DNA of 44,987 nucleotides from Planctomycetota bacterium. Its GTDB lineage: Bacteria; Planctomycetota; Planctomycetia; JALXBF01. The position numbers were made by a program, and so were the translations under genes. How positions within the stretch are numbered: position 1 is the first letter of the stretch; every line of letters starts with the position of its first letter. This document shows, piece by piece, positions 18,070 to 37,060 of this stretch. The notes below the pieces were generated by a model. It worked only from the letters and a program-made list of their open reading frames with translations. It was not told where the DNA came from and ran no database searches. The stretch covers positions 1 through 44,987 of the forward strand of contig JALXBF010000143.1 of NCBI GenBank assembly GCA_026991575.1, given 5' to 3'.

Positions 18070-21000
18070 TTATTGCTTCGCGAGTTGGCCGCGTCGGATG
18101 CGCAGCTTCACCGGCGCGGCGCCATGCAGAGTATTCGCCCCCTCACGCCGCGCATACACCCCGAACCAACGCTCCTGCTCACCCACCCACGGCTCCGCGT
18201 ACACCCGGATCCACCGCTCCTGCTCGCGCTCCGTGATCAGAATACCGTTCAGGCCTACGTCCAGCACACGCACTCCATGCGGCAAACCAACAAGCTCAAT
18301 TGGCACGCGACCCTTGAAGCCTCCGCGCCTCCGGATGGAAACTTTCAGCCGCGCCGTTGCTCCCGGCGCCAGCAGCAGCTCCTGCCGATCCACCGACGTG
18401 ACAATATCACCGGGAGGCTGCACTCGAATCTGGCCCAACGACAGCCGCTGCGTGACCGCCTTGCCGTCAATCACCGCCCGGGCCACAACCTGGACGTCGC
18501 CACTGCCCTGTGGCCCAGGCTTCAACTCGGCCCCGGCATACAGGGGCACCGACGCGTCGAACGTCTCTGCCTCCACAACCGTCCCGGGCAATACGCACCC
18601 TTTTGGAACCCGTTCAAAGGTGACGGTCACGGGACCGGCAAACTGGTCCAACCGCTCGCAGCTGATCCTGATCGGCACCGCGCCACCCTGCCAAACGGAC
18701 GGCGATCGCGGCGAAACGCTGATACGGAACCCAGGTTCGGGAGGTCGGACTGTGAGCCGGTAGCCGTAACCGACGCCGCCGGCACCGCGAGCGTCGCGGA
18801 TGGCCACCACGTACGTGCCATCAGCTGGCGCGGTGAAGTAGACCCGGGAATCGCGCTCATAGCGGGGGGCAGCATCGTCGTTGCGGTAGTACAGGCGGAA
18901 TTGAGGCATTCCGTTCGGCGTTAGTTTGGTGCCTGGCGGATGAACGGACACCTTGTAGACAACCGTTCCCACTGGCTTATAGGACGGCGTCGTGTCGAAG
19001 TACGTCAACCGGCGACCACCAAACGAAAAGAAGAGCACGTCGTCGTCGGGGTTGCGTGGCAGCCTCTTGATCCGCACGACCTCGCCGTCGGCGTAAAGGT
19101 AGTCGTTCGTTGCCAGCTCGGCCCACGCTTCGATCCGGAACCCCGTCTGGCGTGCGTCGCGGACGTTCAGGGTCGTATATGTCTGGGCCTCACAGCGCAG
19201 CACGGCCCGCTCAATCGGCCGCAGATCTTGATCGAGAACTTCGATGAACGAGTCCAGCCGCGAGCCGAGGTCCGCCGCGCGCAGCTCGACCACAAGTTGC
19301 TCGCCGGCCCGGGCCTGAAACGCGACGTAGTCCACGTCTCCAGGGCGGTCAATGCGACCGTCGACTGTGCCCGGAATCTGCTTGAGCCTCAGCCAGCCCG
19401 CCGGCTCCTGCGTACTGTCGCGCTCTTCCACGACAGCAGGGAAACGTCCCAGAAAGACACGGACCGGATTCAGCGGCGACGGATCGAGCCTCAGCGTGCG
19501 CCACTTGCCCACCTCCTCCGCTGCGGCAGCAATTTGAACCCGCCGCTCCGGCATCCCCAGGTTAACCCCTCGCACCACCACCGTACGCGACTTGCCGTCC
19601 GCCGGGATGCCTAACGGGAAAACCTCCGTCACGACGGGCAACTTGCCCATCGTGATCACGTACCAGGCGTTGCCGGCGCCACGGAACTGGGCGTCGCGCA
19701 CCTCGACCGTGTAGCGACCGGCACGCTCCGCACGCCAGCCGGCGAGCCCATCGTAGGAGCTGGCGACCACGCGCCCGTCCGGATCATGTACGAGCACGAT
19801 CGGCTCCAGCTGGCGTGCGCCCGGCTCGTTGCGTATGACCACCCCGATTTCATCCCCTGCCGCCAGTTCGATCGCGTAGAAATCGATCGCCCCGGCGGCC
19901 TCCAGCCTTCCGCGCACGGATCGCCCGGCCGGCACGCGTTGCGCAGCGGCGCGACGGTTGTTCGGCTCAACCTCTGCAACCAGCGGGTATTCAACGACGA
20001 GCAGATCAGTGGCTGCCTGACCCCCTCGGCCTTTCAGCACAAGCCGATACACGCCACCACGCACATCAGAGGGCAGCTTGACCGAGAGCACCAGTTCGCC
20101 AGCCCCCCGCTCGGTCAGCTTCAGCACCGCCGCCGCAATGCCCTGAAGCTCGGCCCGTTCGATCCAGCGCAGCTGCTTGCCCTTCACCGTCACACGCACC
20201 GTGGCACCGGCGGCAGCCACGGCCGGCTCTACGGCGGTGATCTGCGGAGCGGGTGGCTTCGGCAGCGGACCAGTAAGCCAGCGTGCCGCCGGCAAAGCCG
20301 ACACGCCAGTCGCCCCCCGGGCCGGCACCACTTTGAGAAGTCCGTTGAACAGCCCGACAAACACTGTCCCGTTCACCGGGTCGATTGCCAACGTATGCGG
20401 CTGGTCCTCAAGCCCCGACAGCGTCCGTTCCTCAGTGAGCGTCGCCGCTTGCCACCACTTCAGCGTGCCATCTTCCGCGATGGACACCAGCCGGGAACCG
20501 TCGGCCGAAAACCTCAGCTGGACCACCGGCCCTTCATGGGCAAACGTGCTGCGGAGTAGTCGGCCACCGGCCTCGCTGACCTCCCAGATACGAATGCTGC
20601 GGTCCACGCCTGCAGCCGCGACCCAGTTCCGCTTCGGATGCCACGCTACTGTGTACAACCAGTCGGTGGACTCGGTCAGCGAATAGAGCCGTTTGCGGCT
20701 GGCCACATGCCAGATCTTCACGGTTCGGTCCGCCGCGGCCGTGGCCAGGTAGGCGCCGTCAGGACTCCAGGCCAGGCCGTAGACCGCATCGCTGTGGTCC
20801 TTCAGGTCGGCCAGCTTCTTGCCGACCGCTACGTCCCACAGGCGCACGAGCTTGTCGTAGCTAGCCGACGCCAGCACCTCCGGTCGGCGTGGGTGAAACG
20901 CCAGGTCATAGACCGTATCAACGTGGGCCTCCAGAATCCGAGCCGGCCGGAGGGGTTCGTACAACGGATGGGTTGGCAACCGATAGATCGCGACCTTTGC

Positions 21001-21624
21001 CGCCACAGTCGGCATCCCGAACGCCGCCGCCAGCCAGCGGCCATCGGAGCTCAGTGCTACGGCGGTGACCCGATCCGGCAGCGGGCCCACTCGTCCCCAG
21101 AGCTGCTGCCCGGCGGGCTTCAGCAGCACCACGTACCGGCCAACCGCCAGCGCAAGCAACGACCCGTCGGGTACCAGGTCCGAATCGACGATAGCCGGCG
21201 GCACGGACCGGCGCGGCCGAATCGTGGGCAGAACCAGTGTTGCCCGGGCCTGGTCCGTGTCGTCCACCGCGCCGGCTGCGATCCACCGGCGAAGCAGCTG
21301 AATCTCCTCGGCTGACGGCTGACGCGCTTCGGGCGGTGGCATGTGAGGCTTTCTCTTCTTTTCGACCAACAAAACCAGAAGGCTGGCATCCGGCCTGCCC
21401 GGCACGATCACGTCACCAGAATTGCCCCCAAGAGAGAGGGACTCATAATCGGTCAGATCCAGCCCCCCTTCTGTCTTCTCCGCGTTATGGCACCACACGC
21501 AATAGCGCGCCAGAAACGGCCGAACTTCCCGGTAATAGCTAGGTCCTTTCGGCTGGGTCGCATTCGTCGGGCCGTCCTGGGCGGCGCCTAGCACCAACAG
21601 GGCAGCGGTTAATAGCGCACGCAT
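18070..21624 (-). CDS. Planctomycete cytochrome C (PSC1) / WD40 / Ig-like surface protein
   Basis: A 1184-residue exported protein. Residues 1-~22 are a signal peptide. Residues ~30-120 form the planctomycete-type cytochrome C domain, with the heme motif CVWCH at 42-46 and 'KPHMPPPEA', which may supply the axial methionine M95. Residues ~140-450 hold WD40-like repeats ('VYDLAFHPRRPEVLASASYD', 'KLVRLWDV', 'VYGLAWSPDGAYLATAAADR'). The remainder is beta-rich, with pre-peptidase-like or Ig-like modules ('VEPNNRRAAAQRVPAGRSVRG', 'RIDRPGDVDYVAFQARAGEQ'). Near the C terminus, EQERW recurs with a 15-residue period. The gene lies 17 bp after the DUF1549/1553 gene, and this partnership is typical of planctomycetes. 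It is probably periplasmic or surface located; the actual role is unknown. Confidence 0.9.
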   Translation of the reverse strand: MRALLTAALLVLGAAQDGPTNATQPKGPSYYREVRPFLARYCVWCHNAEKTEGGLDLTDYESLSLGGNSGDVIVPGRPDASLLVLLVEKKRKPHMPPPEARQPSAEEIQLLRRWIAAGAVDDTDQARATLVLPTIRPRRSVPPAIVDSDLVPDGSLLALAVGRYVVLLKPAGQQLWGRVGPLPDRVTAVALSSDGRWLAAAFGMPTVAAKVAIYRLPTHPLYEPLRPARILEAHVDTVYDLAFHPRRPEVLASASYDKLVRLWDVAVGKKLADLKDHSDAVYGLAWSPDGAYLATAAADRTVKIWHVASRKRLYSLTESTDWLYTVAWHPKRNWVAAAGVDRSIRIWEVSEAGGRLLRSTFAHEGPVVQLRFSADGSRLVSIAEDGTLKWWQAATLTEERTLSGLEDQPHTLAIDPVNGTVFVGLFNGLLKVVPARGATGVSALPAARWLTGPLPKPPAPQITAVEPAVAAAGATVRVTVKGKQLRWIERAELQGIAAAVLKLTERGAGELVLSVKLPSDVRGGVYRLVLKGRGGQAATDLLVVEYPLVAEVEPNNRRAAAQRVPAGRSVRGRLEAAGAIDFYAIELAAGDEIGVVIRNEPGARQLEPIVLVHDPDGRVVASSYDGLAGWRAERAGRYTVEVRDAQFRGAGNAWYVITMGKLPVVTEVFPLGIPADGKSRTVVVRGVNLGMPERRVQIAAAAEEVGKWRTLRLDPSPLNPVRVFLGRFPAVVEERDSTQEPAGWLRLKQIPGTVDGRIDRPGDVDYVAFQARAGEQLVVELRAADLGSRLDSFIEVLDQDLRPIERAVLRCEAQTYTTLNVRDARQTGFRIEAWAELATNDYLYADGEVVRIKRLPRNPDDDVLFFSFGGRRLTYFDTTPSYKPVGTVVYKVSVHPPGTKLTPNGMPQFRLYYRNDDAAPRYERDSRVYFTAPADGTYVVAIRDARGAGGVGYGYRLTVRPPEPGFRISVSPRSPSVWQGGAVPIRISCERLDQFAGPVTVTFERVPKGCVLPGTVVEAETFDASVPLYAGAELKPGPQGSGDVQVVARAVIDGKAVTQRLSLGQIRVQPPGDIVTSVDRQELLLAPGATARLKVSIRRRGGFKGRVPIELVGLPHGVRVLDVGLNGILITEREQERWIRVYAEPWVGEQERWFGVYARREGANTLHGAAPVKLRIRRGQLAKQ

Positions 21625-21641
21625 GGTAGTTCCCGAACGCC

Positions 21642-24104
21642 TCAGTGATTGAAAGTGAATTCCCGCGACGTCAACACGGCCCAGAACAGATCCTCGAGCT
21701 GTTCGCGCGTGGGGGGACGATCCAGGGGAGCCGGGGCATCATCGGTTCCGAGAGCCTGCGCCAGCTTCTGCTTTTCCTGCTCGGACGGCTTACGGCTGAG
21801 CGCCAGCAAGTACAGCCGTTCGATCGCTTCGCCCAACGGGATCTTCTCGGCTAGCCAACGTGCTATCCTGCCTTTGTCGGACCGCAACTTGGCGTTGAGC
21901 GTTTCGCCGTTGAACAGGTGTAGCGTTTGGGCAATGCTGGCATCGTTCTGCCGCTCGCAACTGCATGGCTGTTCCCGCTTCGGTCGCCCGAACACATCCA
22001 GAAAGTAGCTGGGAACCTTGACATCGGGCAGTTGGATCGCGCGCGTGCCAAGCGGGTAGCCCCGATAACGATCCGGAACAGCCGTGACATAGGCGAACGC
22101 GTCGGCCAGCACCTCTGCCGTCAGCCTGCGCACGCGGTAGTACGAGTACCAGCGGTCATCGAAGGCGTTCTCAGGTGATGGCACACTGCTGCGCTGGTAG
22201 GTGGCCGAAGAGAGAATCGTCCGAATCAACCAGCGCAGGTCATAGCCATGTTTAACGAACTCCGCACTCAAGCGCTCCAGGAGCGGTTCATTGGATGCCG
22301 GGTTGGTTACCCGCAGATCATCGGGCGGATCAACGATACCGCGGCCCAGCAGAGCAGCCCAGACGCGGTTGACAATCGAGCGAGCAAACAGCGCGTTCCG
22401 GTCCGAGGTAAGCCATTCGGCCAGATACTGGCGGCGGGTTCCTGCGTAGTCTGCCGGCATTGGCGCGCCGTCGAGTGGGGCTGGACGCATGGGCACGCCA
22501 CGACGCGGATGCAGCACATCGCCGTCCGGCGCGTCGTAGACAACGACCTCGCCCGGCTGTTTGCCATTCTTCAGCCGCACGCGAGCAAATAGATTCGCGG
22601 TCGCGTAGTACTGGTCCTGCGTCCACTTCTCGAGCGGATGGTTGTGACAACGGGCGCAGGTCAGAGACGTGCCAAGGAACGTGACCGAGGTGGTCTCGGT
22701 CAACTGCACGACGTCCTTGTGCAGGACGAAGTAGTTGGCGGCACCGTTCTGGAGATTGCTTCCCGTGGCGGTCAGCACCTGGCGTGCCACCGTCTGCCAA
22801 CTGCGGTTTTCCGCCACGGCCTCCCGCAACCAGCGTTGAAAGGCCCACAGTGCCGGCGCGGGCAGCCGTTCCGAGGACAGCAGGAACATGTCCGACAGCC
22901 AGTAGGTCCAGTAGTCTACGAACGCCTCGGTACGCAGCAGCTCCTCAATCAGCCGCAGCCGCTTTTTCGGGTCGCGGTCCGCAACGAATCGTTCCACCCG
23001 CTCGGGCTCAGGAAGCGTGCCGGTCGCGTCCAGATAGACCCGGCGGATAAAGGTGCGGTCGTCGCACAACGGGGCCGGCGGGATACCAAGCTCGGCAAGC
23101 TTCTTCAGCACCAGGTCGTCAATGAAATTGAATCGTTCGGCCTGTGCGAAGACCGACTCGGCTACGTCCGTGCGGAACGGCACCAGCACGGAGGCCTTCG
23201 CGACGAAATTCCCAAACAGCGCGTACACTTGAGCCTCGCCGCGTCCTTCGACGGCCGCGACACCGTGTTCCGTCACGTTGGCCACGACCATGTTCGAGGA
23301 GGTGTACTTGCACCGATCGGTAATGTCACGCACCGTGCCGTCCGAATAGTGTGCCAGGACAACGAACTGCTGGCTGTCACCCGGGCTGAGCTGGACATGT
23401 TCCGGCAGCATCGTCACGCGTTCCACCACAGGGTCGTCCGGCCGTGGCGCCGGACAACCGTTGGCGATCCAATCGGCCAGGATCCAGAACTCGTCGGAGC
23501 CTAGTTCGAACCGCAGCCCTCCGCCGTGCGGTACGGTCATGGTCGGCTTCACGAGCAGCAAGCTACGGCCGGGATGCTCCAGATCCACGCGGCGGCCACG
23601 GGCCTGACGGGTAAGGACGCGGAAATCGCTCTGCGGATCGTAGCCCCGAAGCGACAACTTCAGCCCCCCTTTGCCAGCCGCCGCGCCGTGACAAGCACCC
23701 GAGTTACAGCCGGAACGGGTCAGAACCGGAATCACGTCGTTACGAAATGAAGGAACGTAAGGCTGCGGTCCCGAACGGACCTCCACCTCAACTTCTCGCG
23801 TGAGCTTGCCGAGGCGCACCATCAGCTTCGTTCGCCCGGGTCTCAGTCCGTGCAGGCGGCCCTGTTGGTCGAGCACAGCAATCGTGCGGTCGGCAACGCG
23901 CAGCTCGGCAACCGGGGTCACATCGCCAATGGCCCGGTCGTCCCCGTCGATCGCTTCCACGACGATCCGCTGCGTGGCGCCCACGCGCCAGAGGACGATC
24001 GGTGCAGGGAACACACGGAGCTCGGCCGGTTCCTTCGGGCCAGCAGCCACTACCACCTCAGCAAGAAGGAGAATACATGAGCAAGTGACAATGCGAGCTT
24101 GCAC
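21642..24104 (-). CDS. DUF1549/DUF1553 protein with Ig-like (BIG2) domains
   Basis: An 820-residue exported protein. After a signal peptide ('CILLLAEVVVAAG'), residues ~28-110 and ~225-305 look like BIG2-type Ig folds. Between them lies the conserved 'SGCNSGACHGAAAGKGGLKL' block (C133, C138, H139), a heme-like C-x4-C-H. DUF1549 spans ~325-500 and includes CARCH (483-487), a standard C-x2-C-H heme motif followed by 'NHPLEKWTQDQYY'. DUF1553 follows, with 'LFARSIVNRVWAALLGRGIV' and 'LRWLIRTILSSATYQRSS'. GTG start at 24104 supported by GGAGG 7 bp upstream. It sits 67 bp after the DUF1501 gene. These proteins always pair with DUF1501 proteins in planctomycetes; function is not established, though redox or polysaccharide roles have been proposed. 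Confidence 0.93.
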   Translation of the reverse strand: MQARIVTCSCILLLAEVVVAAGPKEPAELRVFPAPIVLWRVGATQRIVVEAIDGDDRAIGDVTPVAELRVADRTIAVLDQQGRLHGLRPGRTKLMVRLGKLTREVEVEVRSGPQPYVPSFRNDVIPVLTRSGCNSGACHGAAAGKGGLKLSLRGYDPQSDFRVLTRQARGRRVDLEHPGRSLLLVKPTMTVPHGGGLRFELGSDEFWILADWIANGCPAPRPDDPVVERVTMLPEHVQLSPGDSQQFVVLAHYSDGTVRDITDRCKYTSSNMVVANVTEHGVAAVEGRGEAQVYALFGNFVAKASVLVPFRTDVAESVFAQAERFNFIDDLVLKKLAELGIPPAPLCDDRTFIRRVYLDATGTLPEPERVERFVADRDPKKRLRLIEELLRTEAFVDYWTYWLSDMFLLSSERLPAPALWAFQRWLREAVAENRSWQTVARQVLTATGSNLQNGAANYFVLHKDVVQLTETTSVTFLGTSLTCARCHNHPLEKWTQDQYYATANLFARVRLKNGKQPGEVVVYDAPDGDVLHPRRGVPMRPAPLDGAPMPADYAGTRRQYLAEWLTSDRNALFARSIVNRVWAALLGRGIVDPPDDLRVTNPASNEPLLERLSAEFVKHGYDLRWLIRTILSSATYQRSSVPSPENAFDDRWYSYYRVRRLTAEVLADAFAYVTAVPDRYRGYPLGTRAIQLPDVKVPSYFLDVFGRPKREQPCSCERQNDASIAQTLHLFNGETLNAKLRSDKGRIARWLAEKIPLGEAIERLYLLALSRKPSEQEKQKLAQALGTDDAPAPLDRPPTREQLEDLFWAVLTSREFTFNH

Positions 24105-24171
24105 GGTGCTGCCTCCGGACTCAGCCGACGCGGGTCAGTTCTGGACCTCGCAGGCCACTAGGTCGGGCCGG

Positions 24172-25545
24172 CTAGAGCAGTTCTCGGATGGGCTGGACGT
24201 TGTAGTCCACCAACGGAATGGGCCGGCTCTGCGGCCCTGGCAGCTCATGGTGCACGTCAAAGCCTAGGCCGGCCAAGATGGTCGCGACGACTTCGGCCGG
24301 TGTCACCGGCCTGCTCTTGGGAACGTAGCCAAGTTCGTCCGATTCCCCCACGACCACCCCACCACGCAACGGACCGCCTCCCAAGAGGATGGTCCACACG
24401 CCAGGATGATGGTCACGACCGCCGGCCGGATTGATCTTCGGCGTCCGGCCAAACTCTCCCATCGCGATCACCATCGTGTTCTCGTACAGGCCCCGCTCGA
24501 CCAACTCCTCGATCAGCGTCGTGAAGGCTCGGTCGAAGTTCGGAGCCACTTCGTCTTTCATCTGCAAGATGTCAGTGAACGGCCTCGAGCCGTGAATGTC
24601 CCAGGTCACCTCGTTGAAAACGGTCTCGAACATGTTGATGGTTACGAACCGAACGCCGCGCTCAATCAACCGTCTGGCCAGCAAGCAGCATTGGCCAAAG
24701 CGTGTGCGGCCATAGCGGTCCCGTACGCTGTCCGGTTCCTTGTGGATGTCGAACGCCTCGCGGGCTTCACGGCTGGTCATTAGGGTGTAGGCCTGGCGGA
24801 AAGCGTCGTCGTACTGTTTTGCCTGAGGGCTTGCTTCGAAGCCACGAAGCGACTGCTCGACCAACTCGCGCAGCCGGCGGCGGCGCCGAACACGGACGGC
24901 CGAGACGTACTCAGGAGGCAAGAGATCGCGGACGCGATAGTTTGGGTCGTTGGGATCGGCGTTTAGTACGAACGGGTCGTAGGCTCGGCCCAGGTAACCG
25001 GCATCCTGTCCATGTGGCATGTTGCCGCCCGTGGGGCCGATTGGCTTGGGCATGAGTACGTGCGGCGGGATTGCCCCCTTGGGGCCGCGCAAGTAGCTGA
25101 GGATGCAGCCCACGTGCGGGTACTGAATACCGCCGGAAAACAAGCGGCCGGTCTGCATGAGCTGGTGGCCGGTATCGTGCACGGCCGTAGCCGTGTGATA
25201 GACGGATCGGATAAGCGAGATCTTGTCGGTGTAGCGCGCCAGTCTTGGGAAGATCTCCGTGACGTGGATGCCCGGCACCTTGGTGCGGATCGGCTTGAAC
25301 GGCCCGCGAACCTCTTCGGGCGCGTGCGGCTTTGGGTCCCATGTATCGATATGGCTGGGGCCTCCGACAAGGAAGATGAGAATGCAGTTGACGTCGCGGC
25401 TCGGATCGGCACAGCGAGCCTGGCGTGCGGCGAAGAGCTCCGGTAAACCGAGCCCCAGCAAGGACAAGGTCCCTGCGTGCAGGAAGTCCCTGCGCGTAAA
25501 GCCGTCGCAAAACCGCGCCGGCCGTTTTGCGTCGAGTCGGATCAT
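24172..25545 (-). CDS. DUF1501 domain protein with twin-arginine signal
   Basis: A 457-residue DUF1501 protein. The N terminus carries 'FTRRDFLHAGTLSLLGLGLP', a twin-arginine export signal, so it is folded before export. The conserved DUF1501 blocks are visible: 'CILIFLVGGPSHIDTWDPKP', 'GIHVTEIFPRLARYTDKISL', 'HDTGHQLMQTGRLF', 'VIAMGEFGRTPKINPAGGRD' and 'VVGESDELGYVPKSRPVTP'. The family is distantly related to alkaline phosphatase/sulfatase-fold enzymes, and the His and Asp residues would be metal ligands. The frame extends upstream to 25650, but ATG 25545 is chosen because GGAGGA lies 10 bp upstream and the twin-arginine motif follows 18 residues later. It is the first gene of the DUF1501-DUF1549/1553-PSC1 operon. 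Confidence 0.93.
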   Translation of the reverse strand: MIRLDAKRPARFCDGFTRRDFLHAGTLSLLGLGLPELFAARQARCADPSRDVNCILIFLVGGPSHIDTWDPKPHAPEEVRGPFKPIRTKVPGIHVTEIFPRLARYTDKISLIRSVYHTATAVHDTGHQLMQTGRLFSGGIQYPHVGCILSYLRGPKGAIPPHVLMPKPIGPTGGNMPHGQDAGYLGRAYDPFVLNADPNDPNYRVRDLLPPEYVSAVRVRRRRRLRELVEQSLRGFEASPQAKQYDDAFRQAYTLMTSREAREAFDIHKEPDSVRDRYGRTRFGQCCLLARRLIERGVRFVTINMFETVFNEVTWDIHGSRPFTDILQMKDEVAPNFDRAFTTLIEELVERGLYENTMVIAMGEFGRTPKINPAGGRDHHPGVWTILLGGGPLRGGVVVGESDELGYVPKSRPVTPAEVVATILAGLGFDVHHELPGPQSRPIPLVDYNVQPIRELL

Positions 25546-34942: not shown

Positions 34943-35767
34943 TCACGGGGCAAGCGGTGCAGCCTGTGCGCCCCGGCCGCTGCGCTGACGCACCAGCAGG
35001 GGAGCAGTCAACGCGCACGCAAGCCATAGGCAGAGCGTGATCGGTTCGGGGGTTGGGGTAATCCGCGCGACACCGGGCGAGCCACGGTCGGCCGGCCCGA
35101 ACAGCACACCTCCGTGCACCCCGGGTGCGGGAATCGGTTCGGGAGTGTGCCGCCATAGGCTCGGGTCATCGTTGGCGCGCGCCAGCTCTGCGGGGTCGAT
35201 GCCGGTCGCGACAAACTCGATGGCCAGGCCATTCTTGGAGGCCGGAAAGCCGGCGGCACGATACGCCAGCTGATCGACCATTCGACCGGATGCGTCAACC
35301 AGCTCCAGCGTCGCCCCGCTATTGGGCAGGCCGGCTCCACTGGTGCCGCTCCACCCTATCAGCGGCCAGACGGGAACGGTGGTGGGAATCGACCAGGCGG
35401 TGCGGAAGTGCTGCGGTCGCGCCAGCCCGTCCGGTACCAGCACCAGGGCTTGCCCGGCGGCGATGCGAATCCCCGGGCCGATGGTTCCCAGCAAGCGCCG
35501 TCTCCCGGAACGGCTCACCTTGTACAGCGCCCAGCCAGACAGGTCCTCTTCAGCCATCCCTCCGTTGAACAATTCGATCCACTCTGTGTTCCGGTCGCGC
35601 TGCCGGAAGCCGTCCGCGCCGGACGGGTTGTACATGATCTCGCTGAAGATGATCGCACCGGCCCAGACCCGCCCGGGCAGGCTCAACAATGTGCACGCGC
35701 TGAGGTACAGGATCGCGACGCAGCGACCCATCGGCATCAGCGATAACTTCCCATCGGTTCCCTTCAT
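34943..35767 (-). CDS. Lamin-tail-domain protein with PEP-CTERM-like anchor
   Basis: A 274-residue exported protein. From ATG 35767 the N terminus carries a signal peptide ('CVAILYLSACTLLSLPGRVW'), then 'IIFSEIMYNPSGADG', 'EWIELFN' and 'DLSGWALYK', the hallmarks of the lamin tail domain (LTD), an Ig-like fold found on secreted bacterial proteins. The C terminus is 'TPTPEPITLCLWLACALTAP' followed by basic residues, i.e. PEP motif, membrane helix and basic tail as in PEP-CTERM sorting signals processed by exosortases. ATG 35767 is preferred over the upstream in-frame start because AGGGAGAA precedes it. It lies downstream of the second PEP-CTERM-like gene, separated by the 106-bp hairpin element. 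Confidence 0.8.
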   Translation of the reverse strand: MKGTDGKLSLMPMGRCVAILYLSACTLLSLPGRVWAGAIIFSEIMYNPSGADGFRQRDRNTEWIELFNGGMAEEDLSGWALYKVSRSGRRRLLGTIGPGIRIAAGQALVLVPDGLARPQHFRTAWSIPTTVPVWPLIGWSGTSGAGLPNSGATLELVDASGRMVDQLAYRAAGFPASKNGLAIEFVATGIDPAELARANDDPSLWRHTPEPIPAPGVHGGVLFGPADRGSPGVARITPTPEPITLCLWLACALTAPLLVRQRSGRGAQAAPLAP

Positions 35768-35837
35768 CGCGTTCTCCCTTGGGCTGCTCAGCGTTCTGAT
35801 GCCGTTTCCTTGCCAGGACACGGTCCAAACGTGCGTC

Positions 35838-35943
35838 GTAGGCCCGACCCAGGGGGGGTGACTGCCCAGCGTCCGAGCACGAGGAGCAGGACCGAGTGAG
35901 GAGGTGTCGCCGACATCGTCACCCCCCCTGATCGGGCACCTAC
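35838..35943. repeat. Long interrupted inverted repeat / hairpin
   Basis: CAGGGGGGGTGAC (35850-35862) and GTCACCCCCCCTG (35918-35930) are perfect 13-bp arms. They continue outward, past 1-2 nt internal loops, with GCCCGA (35842-35847) to TCGGGC (35932-35937) and GTAG (35838-35841) to CTAC (35940-35943). In total about 23 bp pair around a 55-nt loop. The outer arm includes the stop codon of the gene at 35940. It may be an RNA structure ending that transcript or a remnant of a small mobile element. Confidence 0.85.
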
Positions 35944-36707
35944 CGTGGCGCTTCGGACAGGGTACGGGTCAGCCAGGCGCAGCGACAGAGGTTGCGGCAA
36001 CACCAGAGCGTGCCGCCAAGGAGCAGCAGGACGCCGGGCGCCGGCTCAGGACAGGGATCGATCGGAAAAGCTTCTTCGAGAAAACCCATATCGTGGCAGC
36101 TGCCTTCCGGTTCCCCGGATGGATCGTCGCCCAGGACCAGAACACGAAAGTCGTCGGACCAGAGACCGGCACGAAGGTCAAATCGGACGGTGCGCAAGTT
36201 GGCCGTTAGGTGCACGTAATCGCCTGGGCCAAGCACCCCCTGGCGAATGTCGTCCTCGCGCGGGTAGCGCACGCCGGGGGCCCCAAGCAGATGATCGGTC
36301 GGATGCATCGTCGCCGGCTTCACCAGAATGCCCAGCACCGGTCGGTCGAAGGTGACCGAGCCGACGTAGCGGACAAGGTTCCCGAAGACGCGGCCTCGCG
36401 GGTCGGCGTGGAAGTAGTAGGACACCACGGGCGTACCGGCCATCACCACGCCGGGATCCATGGGATAGACTGCTTCATACCGCCCGGGACTACTGATGTC
36501 GACGGCCACGTCGACCGGTAACAGCTTCTGTTGCTCCTCAAACACGATCACGACCCGGTTCCGCTCCAGCTTGTGCACCTCAACCGTCGGCGGTGGCGGG
36601 TCCCAGATCTGCACCATGCCGTGCGTACGGATGATGCCGGCCGACAGTGGTGGTGCAGCCAAGAACGGTAAGAGGTGGGTCATCATCGTCCACACAGCGC
36701 GCACCAT
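35940..36707 (-). CDS. Exported protein with PEP-CTERM-like tail, unknown function
   Basis: A 255-residue protein with signal peptide ('MMTHLLPFLAAPPLSAG') and a beta-rich body of unknown family ('VQIWDPPPPTVEVHKLERNR', 'VVSYYFHADPRGRVFG', 'VGSVTFDRPVLGILVKPATM', 'VHLTANLRTVRFDLRAGLWS'). Near the C terminus 'CPEPAPGVLLLLGGTLWCC' gives a PEP motif and hydrophobic helix, then Cys/Arg-rich residues, as in PEP-CTERM proteins. Start ATG 36707 is supported by AGGAGGAG upstream. The frame is open to 36749. Planctomycete 'choice-of-anchor' style proteins look like this, but the function is unknown. Its stop codon is inside the stem of the hairpin at 35838-35943. Confidence 0.72.
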   Translation of the reverse strand: MVRAVWTMMTHLLPFLAAPPLSAGIIRTHGMVQIWDPPPPTVEVHKLERNRVVIVFEEQQKLLPVDVAVDISSPGRYEAVYPMDPGVVMAGTPVVSYYFHADPRGRVFGNLVRYVGSVTFDRPVLGILVKPATMHPTDHLLGAPGVRYPREDDIRQGVLGPGDYVHLTANLRTVRFDLRAGLWSDDFRVLVLGDDPSGEPEGSCHDMGFLEEAFPIDPCPEPAPGVLLLLGGTLWCCRNLCRCAWLTRTLSEAPR

Positions 36708-37060
36708 GGCCGCTCCTCCTGCTGCTACGGCTGCGGAGTTGCCCGGCACATCAGGCAGAGCTCAGCAAGTTGACATGAGCCCAGGTCAGGAAAATGAGCC
36801 CAGGGACAGCTAGGTCCGTCCGACGTGATCGATCATCCTGACCACGGTGTGCTGCCGACCGCCACAAGCAAGAACCGTGCCAAAGCCGGCGGCAGTACGG
36901 CCAGGCGCCGATGAGGCGAGAACGCCGCGAAAACGGTCGTCTCTGACACCCCCCGAGCTGCCGTCCCGCGTCTCTCAGGAAGAGAGCTGTCTCCGGCGCG
37001 GACAACTGTGTCTCAATGCGCGACAGGTCAGCCGCACGGGTTCACCCAGTTGGCGGAGGA
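36708..37060. other. Intergenic region between exported protein and GT-C gene
   Basis: 353 bp with no supportable gene. It contains an 11-bp direct repeat ATGAGCCCAGG at 36775-36785 and 36794-36804 (19-bp period), and the palindrome TGATCGATCA at 36826-36835. No promoter-quality hexamer pair was found. Confidence 0.5.

Follow-up and report, generated by a model that had tools for sequence, protein, structure and literature searches.

The question raised by this locus is what a long inverted repeat placed exactly at the stop codon of a gene represents: a signal at the end of a transcript, part of the leader of the next gene, a site in the DNA, the remnant of a mobile element or a repeat that arose by chance. 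The window analysed here is a stretch of 44,987 nucleotides from a Planctomycetota bacterium (contig JALXBF010000143.1). Positions 35838-35943 of the window hold an interrupted inverted repeat, which is predicted from pairing and folding to form a stem-loop on the minus strand. The element is 106 nt in total and comprises 23 bp in three blocks around a 55-nt loop. The inner 13-bp arms, which contain G7 on the low-coordinate side (35850-35862) and C7 on the high-coordinate side (35918-35930), pair perfectly. The 6-bp stem (35842-35847 with 35932-35937) is set off from these arms by a 2-by-1 interruption, and the 4-bp outer stem (35838-35841 with 35940-35943) by a 2-nt bulge. A preliminary description of this DNA had reported arms of 13, 6 and 4 bp in register over 106 bp, a 55-nt loop and seven G opposite seven C, and all of these were located. 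It had placed a stop codon in the outer stem and, in its title, in the loop; the title is loose on this point, and the TAG stop codon of the upstream gene, which is read on the minus strand from 35942 to 35940, lies inside the 4-bp outer stem.

Both flanking genes are encoded on the minus strand. The upstream gene (35940-36749) encodes up to 269 aa, and its product has no Pfam or NCBIfam match. The downstream gene (34943-35767), which is co-directional, encodes a protein with a lamin-tail domain; its longest ORF starts with GTG at 35821, and its likely start is the ATG at 35767, which has AAGGGAG ahead of it and lies 70 nt beyond the stem. Each gene encodes a C-terminus that resembles PEP-CTERM by motif, as described previously, although neither protein matched the PEP-CTERM model. 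Because the genome encodes an exosortase and carries PEP-CTERM tails elsewhere (three of seven above the curated cut-off, among the matches listed), the label is plausible by motif.

The minus-strand transcript, whose folding had been proposed as a check, folds better than its shuffles: the 106 nt of the gene strand have an MFE of -59.7 (z -3.49), and 1 of 200 shuffles was as good. In this RNA, a U-G pair partly closes the first interruption, which gives 24 pairs in the arms and a duplex of -45.5 kcal/mol. The RNA of the plus strand folds well too (MFE -58.2, z -4.53, 0 of 200 shuffles as good), and the fold therefore does not tie the element firmly to the gene strand. This symmetry, together with the perfect 13-bp inverted arms flanking a short segment, speaks for a site that acts in the DNA, such as a palindrome bound by a protein or a 55-bp segment invertible between the 13-bp repeats. 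However, the RNA of the gene strand alone gains the additional G-U pair, and 55 bp is very short for an invertible segment, which counts against inversion; we regard a DNA-level site as highly improbable.

The preliminary description had also held that the repeat is much longer than chance palindromes in this DNA. Within the window this is correct. The element contains the longest exact inverted repeat (loop up to 120), whereas four dinucleotide-shuffled windows contained none longer than 12 bp; a simple estimate of the number of perfect 13-bp repeats with loops of 3-80 gives 0.1 to 0.2 per 45 kb, and the repeat score of the element (15) was reached by 1 of 5000 shuffles of its gene end. However, the repeat is less exceptional on the scale of the genome. 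In a sample of 656,341 bases from 40 stretches of the same genome (18,346 of the bases are N), we found 16 exact repeats of at least 13 bp with loops of 3-80, or approximately one per 40 kb, so that one in a 45-kb window is close to the norm for this genome. Each of five shuffled copies of the sample held only one or two, and repeats with a gapped score at least as high as that of the element numbered 12 in the sample (one at a contig end) versus 7 in three shuffled copies combined. Such repeats are thus far more numerous in this genome than in shuffles. As a separate observation, a perfect 21-bp inverted repeat with a 13-nt loop stands at the end of one contig of this genome (G000:C2:1-55; positions 1-55 of sampled stretch L005) and is likely an assembly fold-back.

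These frequencies bear on the main rival explanation, in which the element has no function and is an inverted repeat that arose by chance or is neutral, lying between genes in a GC-rich genome. That such a repeat is to be expected in 45 kb, and that this one has a long loop and no T-rich tail, speak for this explanation; its rank against the shuffles of its own gene end and the scarcity of such repeats in shuffled genome copies speak against it, as does its location directly on a stop codon, a place at which repeats of this kind are overrepresented. We consider a repeat without function unlikely, though it deserves serious weight.

The enrichment was observed in a survey of gene ends in the genome sample, in which 405 genes were called by a simple rule of length and GC3 rather than by a gene finder. 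In 207 cases, the window and the element included, the gene end is followed by a gap of 80 nt or more. Across these ends, the mean fold energy of 50-nt windows fell from between -14.0 and -14.7 (positions -90 to -15) to -16.15 at +15 past the stop codon. Windows below -25 kcal/mol made up 9% just past the stop versus 0-2%. Repeats scoring at least 11 occurred at 20 of the 207 ends, a count in which hairpins common to convergent genes are entered twice (two pairs among the 20). Shuffled ends yielded 4 such repeats in 1035, and coding stretches, which were shorter than the gene-end windows (92 vs. 120 nt), yielded 1 in 207. The highest score of the 207 ends belongs to the element and two others alike, and no other loop in the 20 repeats is as long as its 55 nt. 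Where the gap measures 100 nt or more (186 gene ends), its 106-nt MFE at the stop is the lowest; among the same 186, the stretch 90-196 nt past the stop of another gene folds nearly as low (-58.4). With a repeat that scores above shuffles and lies within approximately 110 nt of the stop codon, the element belongs to the class of gene-end stem-loops. When the score is lowered to at least 10, the class has 26 members among the 207 ends, including the element. The 8 nt past the stem hold a mean of 2.8 T at these 26 repeats compared with 1.35 in the background, and at least four T at 10 of the 26 compared with 5 of 207. Five of the seven genes with PEP-CTERM tails were read: two, both below the PEP-CTERM cut-off, end in repeats scoring 11 or 12, and the three above the cut-off have no gene-end repeat scoring at least 10. 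In three convergent gene pairs, one strong stem-loop common to both genes lies in the gap (L049, 2189-2285; L004, 4695-4824; L019, 10758-10829), which suggests that one hairpin may serve both strands.

In this GC-rich planctomycete, therefore, approximately a tenth of the gene ends that are followed by a gap of 80 nt or more carry a clear stem-loop, often with a T-rich tail. The element alone means little, and it is the survey that offers a basis from which transcript ends could be called in Planctomycetes, for which we found no dedicated study of transcription termination in the open-access text, although one could exist. Because a good share of the genes here end in stem-loops, we most likely see here a transcript-end signal of a somewhat unusual form, not an element of a new type. 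Specifically, we hold with moderate confidence that it is a GC-rich gene-end stem-loop that helps to end transcription and/or shields the 3′ end of the mRNA. We infer that the element is transcribed and that it acts in one or both of these ways. Once the stretch past the stop codon of the gene 36749-35940 was transcribed, the stem-loop would fold at the 3′ terminus of that mRNA. It would then probably help to end transcription, either weakly on its own or with Rho or pausing, and/or keep exonucleases from attacking the mRNA at this end, and it would so separate the upstream gene from the co-directional gene downstream. Among the three possibilities raised in the preliminary description (a structured RNA, a factor-assisted terminator and a degenerate miniature mobile element), the terminator-like one fits best, because stem-loops are enriched at gene ends and because the genome encodes Rho, with two matches above the cut-off.

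The element has the GC-rich stem shortly past the stop codon that characterizes a canonical intrinsic (Rho-independent) terminator, and hairpins of this kind are enriched at the gene ends of this genome. Unlike such a terminator, it has a 55-nt loop and lacks a T-rich tail directly past the stem: the 8 nt past the 6-bp stem are CTACGACG, with one T, and the 8 nt past the outer stem contain none. The criteria of TransTermHP, as quoted in PMC12207403, are a loop of 3-13 nt and a whole stem-loop of up to 59 nt, and the same paper gives a median loop of 4 in each species for published terminators. With 55 nt and 106 nt, respectively, the element falls outside these criteria, by which it would not count as canonical. 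Our own scan for consensus terminators returned nothing at the element, which is beyond the reach of a scan limited to loops of 3-8. In PMC8355165, a study of 13 bacterial genomes, it is argued that not all bacteria require the poly-U trail; 98% of the correctly identified sites lie at most 80 nt from the stop codon, 84% of the stems have 4-10 bp, and 81% of the loops have 5-8 nt, with loops under 13 in more than 90%. The element resembles the hairpins described there in lying within 80 nt of the stop codon and in having no poly-U, and differs from them in its 23 bp in three blocks and its 55-nt loop.

The long loop and the missing T-rich tail count against the gene-end reading, and so does the overlap of the outer stem with the stop codon, where the stem would be covered by the terminating ribosome. 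The presence of such repeats in spacers between divergent genes and the nearly equal fold 90-196 nt past another stop codon also weigh against it. A more particular possibility, which we consider quite improbable, is that a tailless, long-loop stem-loop at the stop codon is a regulated gene end. If this were so, the outer stem would be held open by ribosomes finishing at the TAG, and read-through into the second surface protein would be coupled with translation of the first.

The structure might instead belong to the downstream gene, as a 5′ leader structure or an attenuator of the gene encoding the lamin-tail domain. It lies upstream of that gene as well, 70 nt from the likely ATG, and in a 221-nt context the hairpin is retained and further small stems form, although the 221 nt as a whole fold no better than shuffles (z -0.51, 64 of 200 as good). 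However, the stop codon of the upstream gene is inside the stem, and repeats scoring at least 11 are rarer in divergent-gene spacers (1 of 41) than at gene ends (20 of 207). At a score of at least 10, the contrast with these promoter-side spacers is weaker (3 of 41 vs. 26 of 207, with a small sample of spacers). Moreover, a search of positions 35500-36300 against Rfam 15 returned no family at the gathering score, and its only match was MIR1432 (E 0.93, 19.6 of 90 bits). We therefore rejected a known structured-RNA family, and the structured RNA of the preliminary description finds no support in that form; a leader or attenuator is, in our opinion, improbable.

The remaining suggestion was that a degenerate miniature mobile element created the end of the gene by its insertion, and further copies in the genome had been named as its test. 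The element does resemble miniature inverted-repeat mobile elements in having inverted ends that flank a short core. Unlike them, it is present in a single copy, since the only match in the whole genome is the element itself, and it has no target-site duplication, the adjacent flanks being different by eye. The 13-mer was matched 20 times with at most one mismatch, two of the matches being the arms of the element, compared with 8 times for a reversed control pattern; none of the remaining 18 has a paired arm nearby, complementary stretches within 150 nt being no longer than 8 nt. No similar sequence was found in phage and plasmid records. An origin from a mobile element thus did poorly on the test of copies, and we consider it extremely unlikely.

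Comparison with relatives is constrained by the position of the source genome, which is the sole member of its order among the genomes compared. Of 38 relatives, one matched the 401 bp of DNA around the element, and this match covers 25 nt that lie beyond the element itself. Remote homologues of the upstream protein are present in 35 of 197 other genomes of the class, with at most 38% identity over the matched parts among the matches listed, and none was found in viral contigs. For the neighbouring protein with the lamin-tail domain, a search of genome contigs gave no close relative, and among 293 further genomes of the phylum 32 have weak relatives. At the best 14 homologous loci of the upstream gene, in 14 genomes, a repeat scoring at least 10 follows the stop codon at only two, with a sequence that differs by eye, and this too counts against a gene-end signal.

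Two further features of this genome were observed. The search for the RNA-binding domain of Rho gave one weak match in addition to the two above the cut-off (contigs C158, 27883-28104; C64, 12115-12336; and C172, 3237-3452, of genome G000). Each of the three lies inside an open frame of approximately 500 aa, and the genome possibly encodes two Rho paralogues. In the window itself, which includes cytochrome families of planctomycetes, the minus strand of positions 18070-25545 carries a planctomycete cassette that comprises DUF1501, PSCyt2/PSD1 with an Ig-like domain, and PSCyt1 with WD40 repeats; among the matches listed, the closest relatives of the DUF1501 gene are from Gemmataceae and other planctomycete MAGs, at up to 72% identity.
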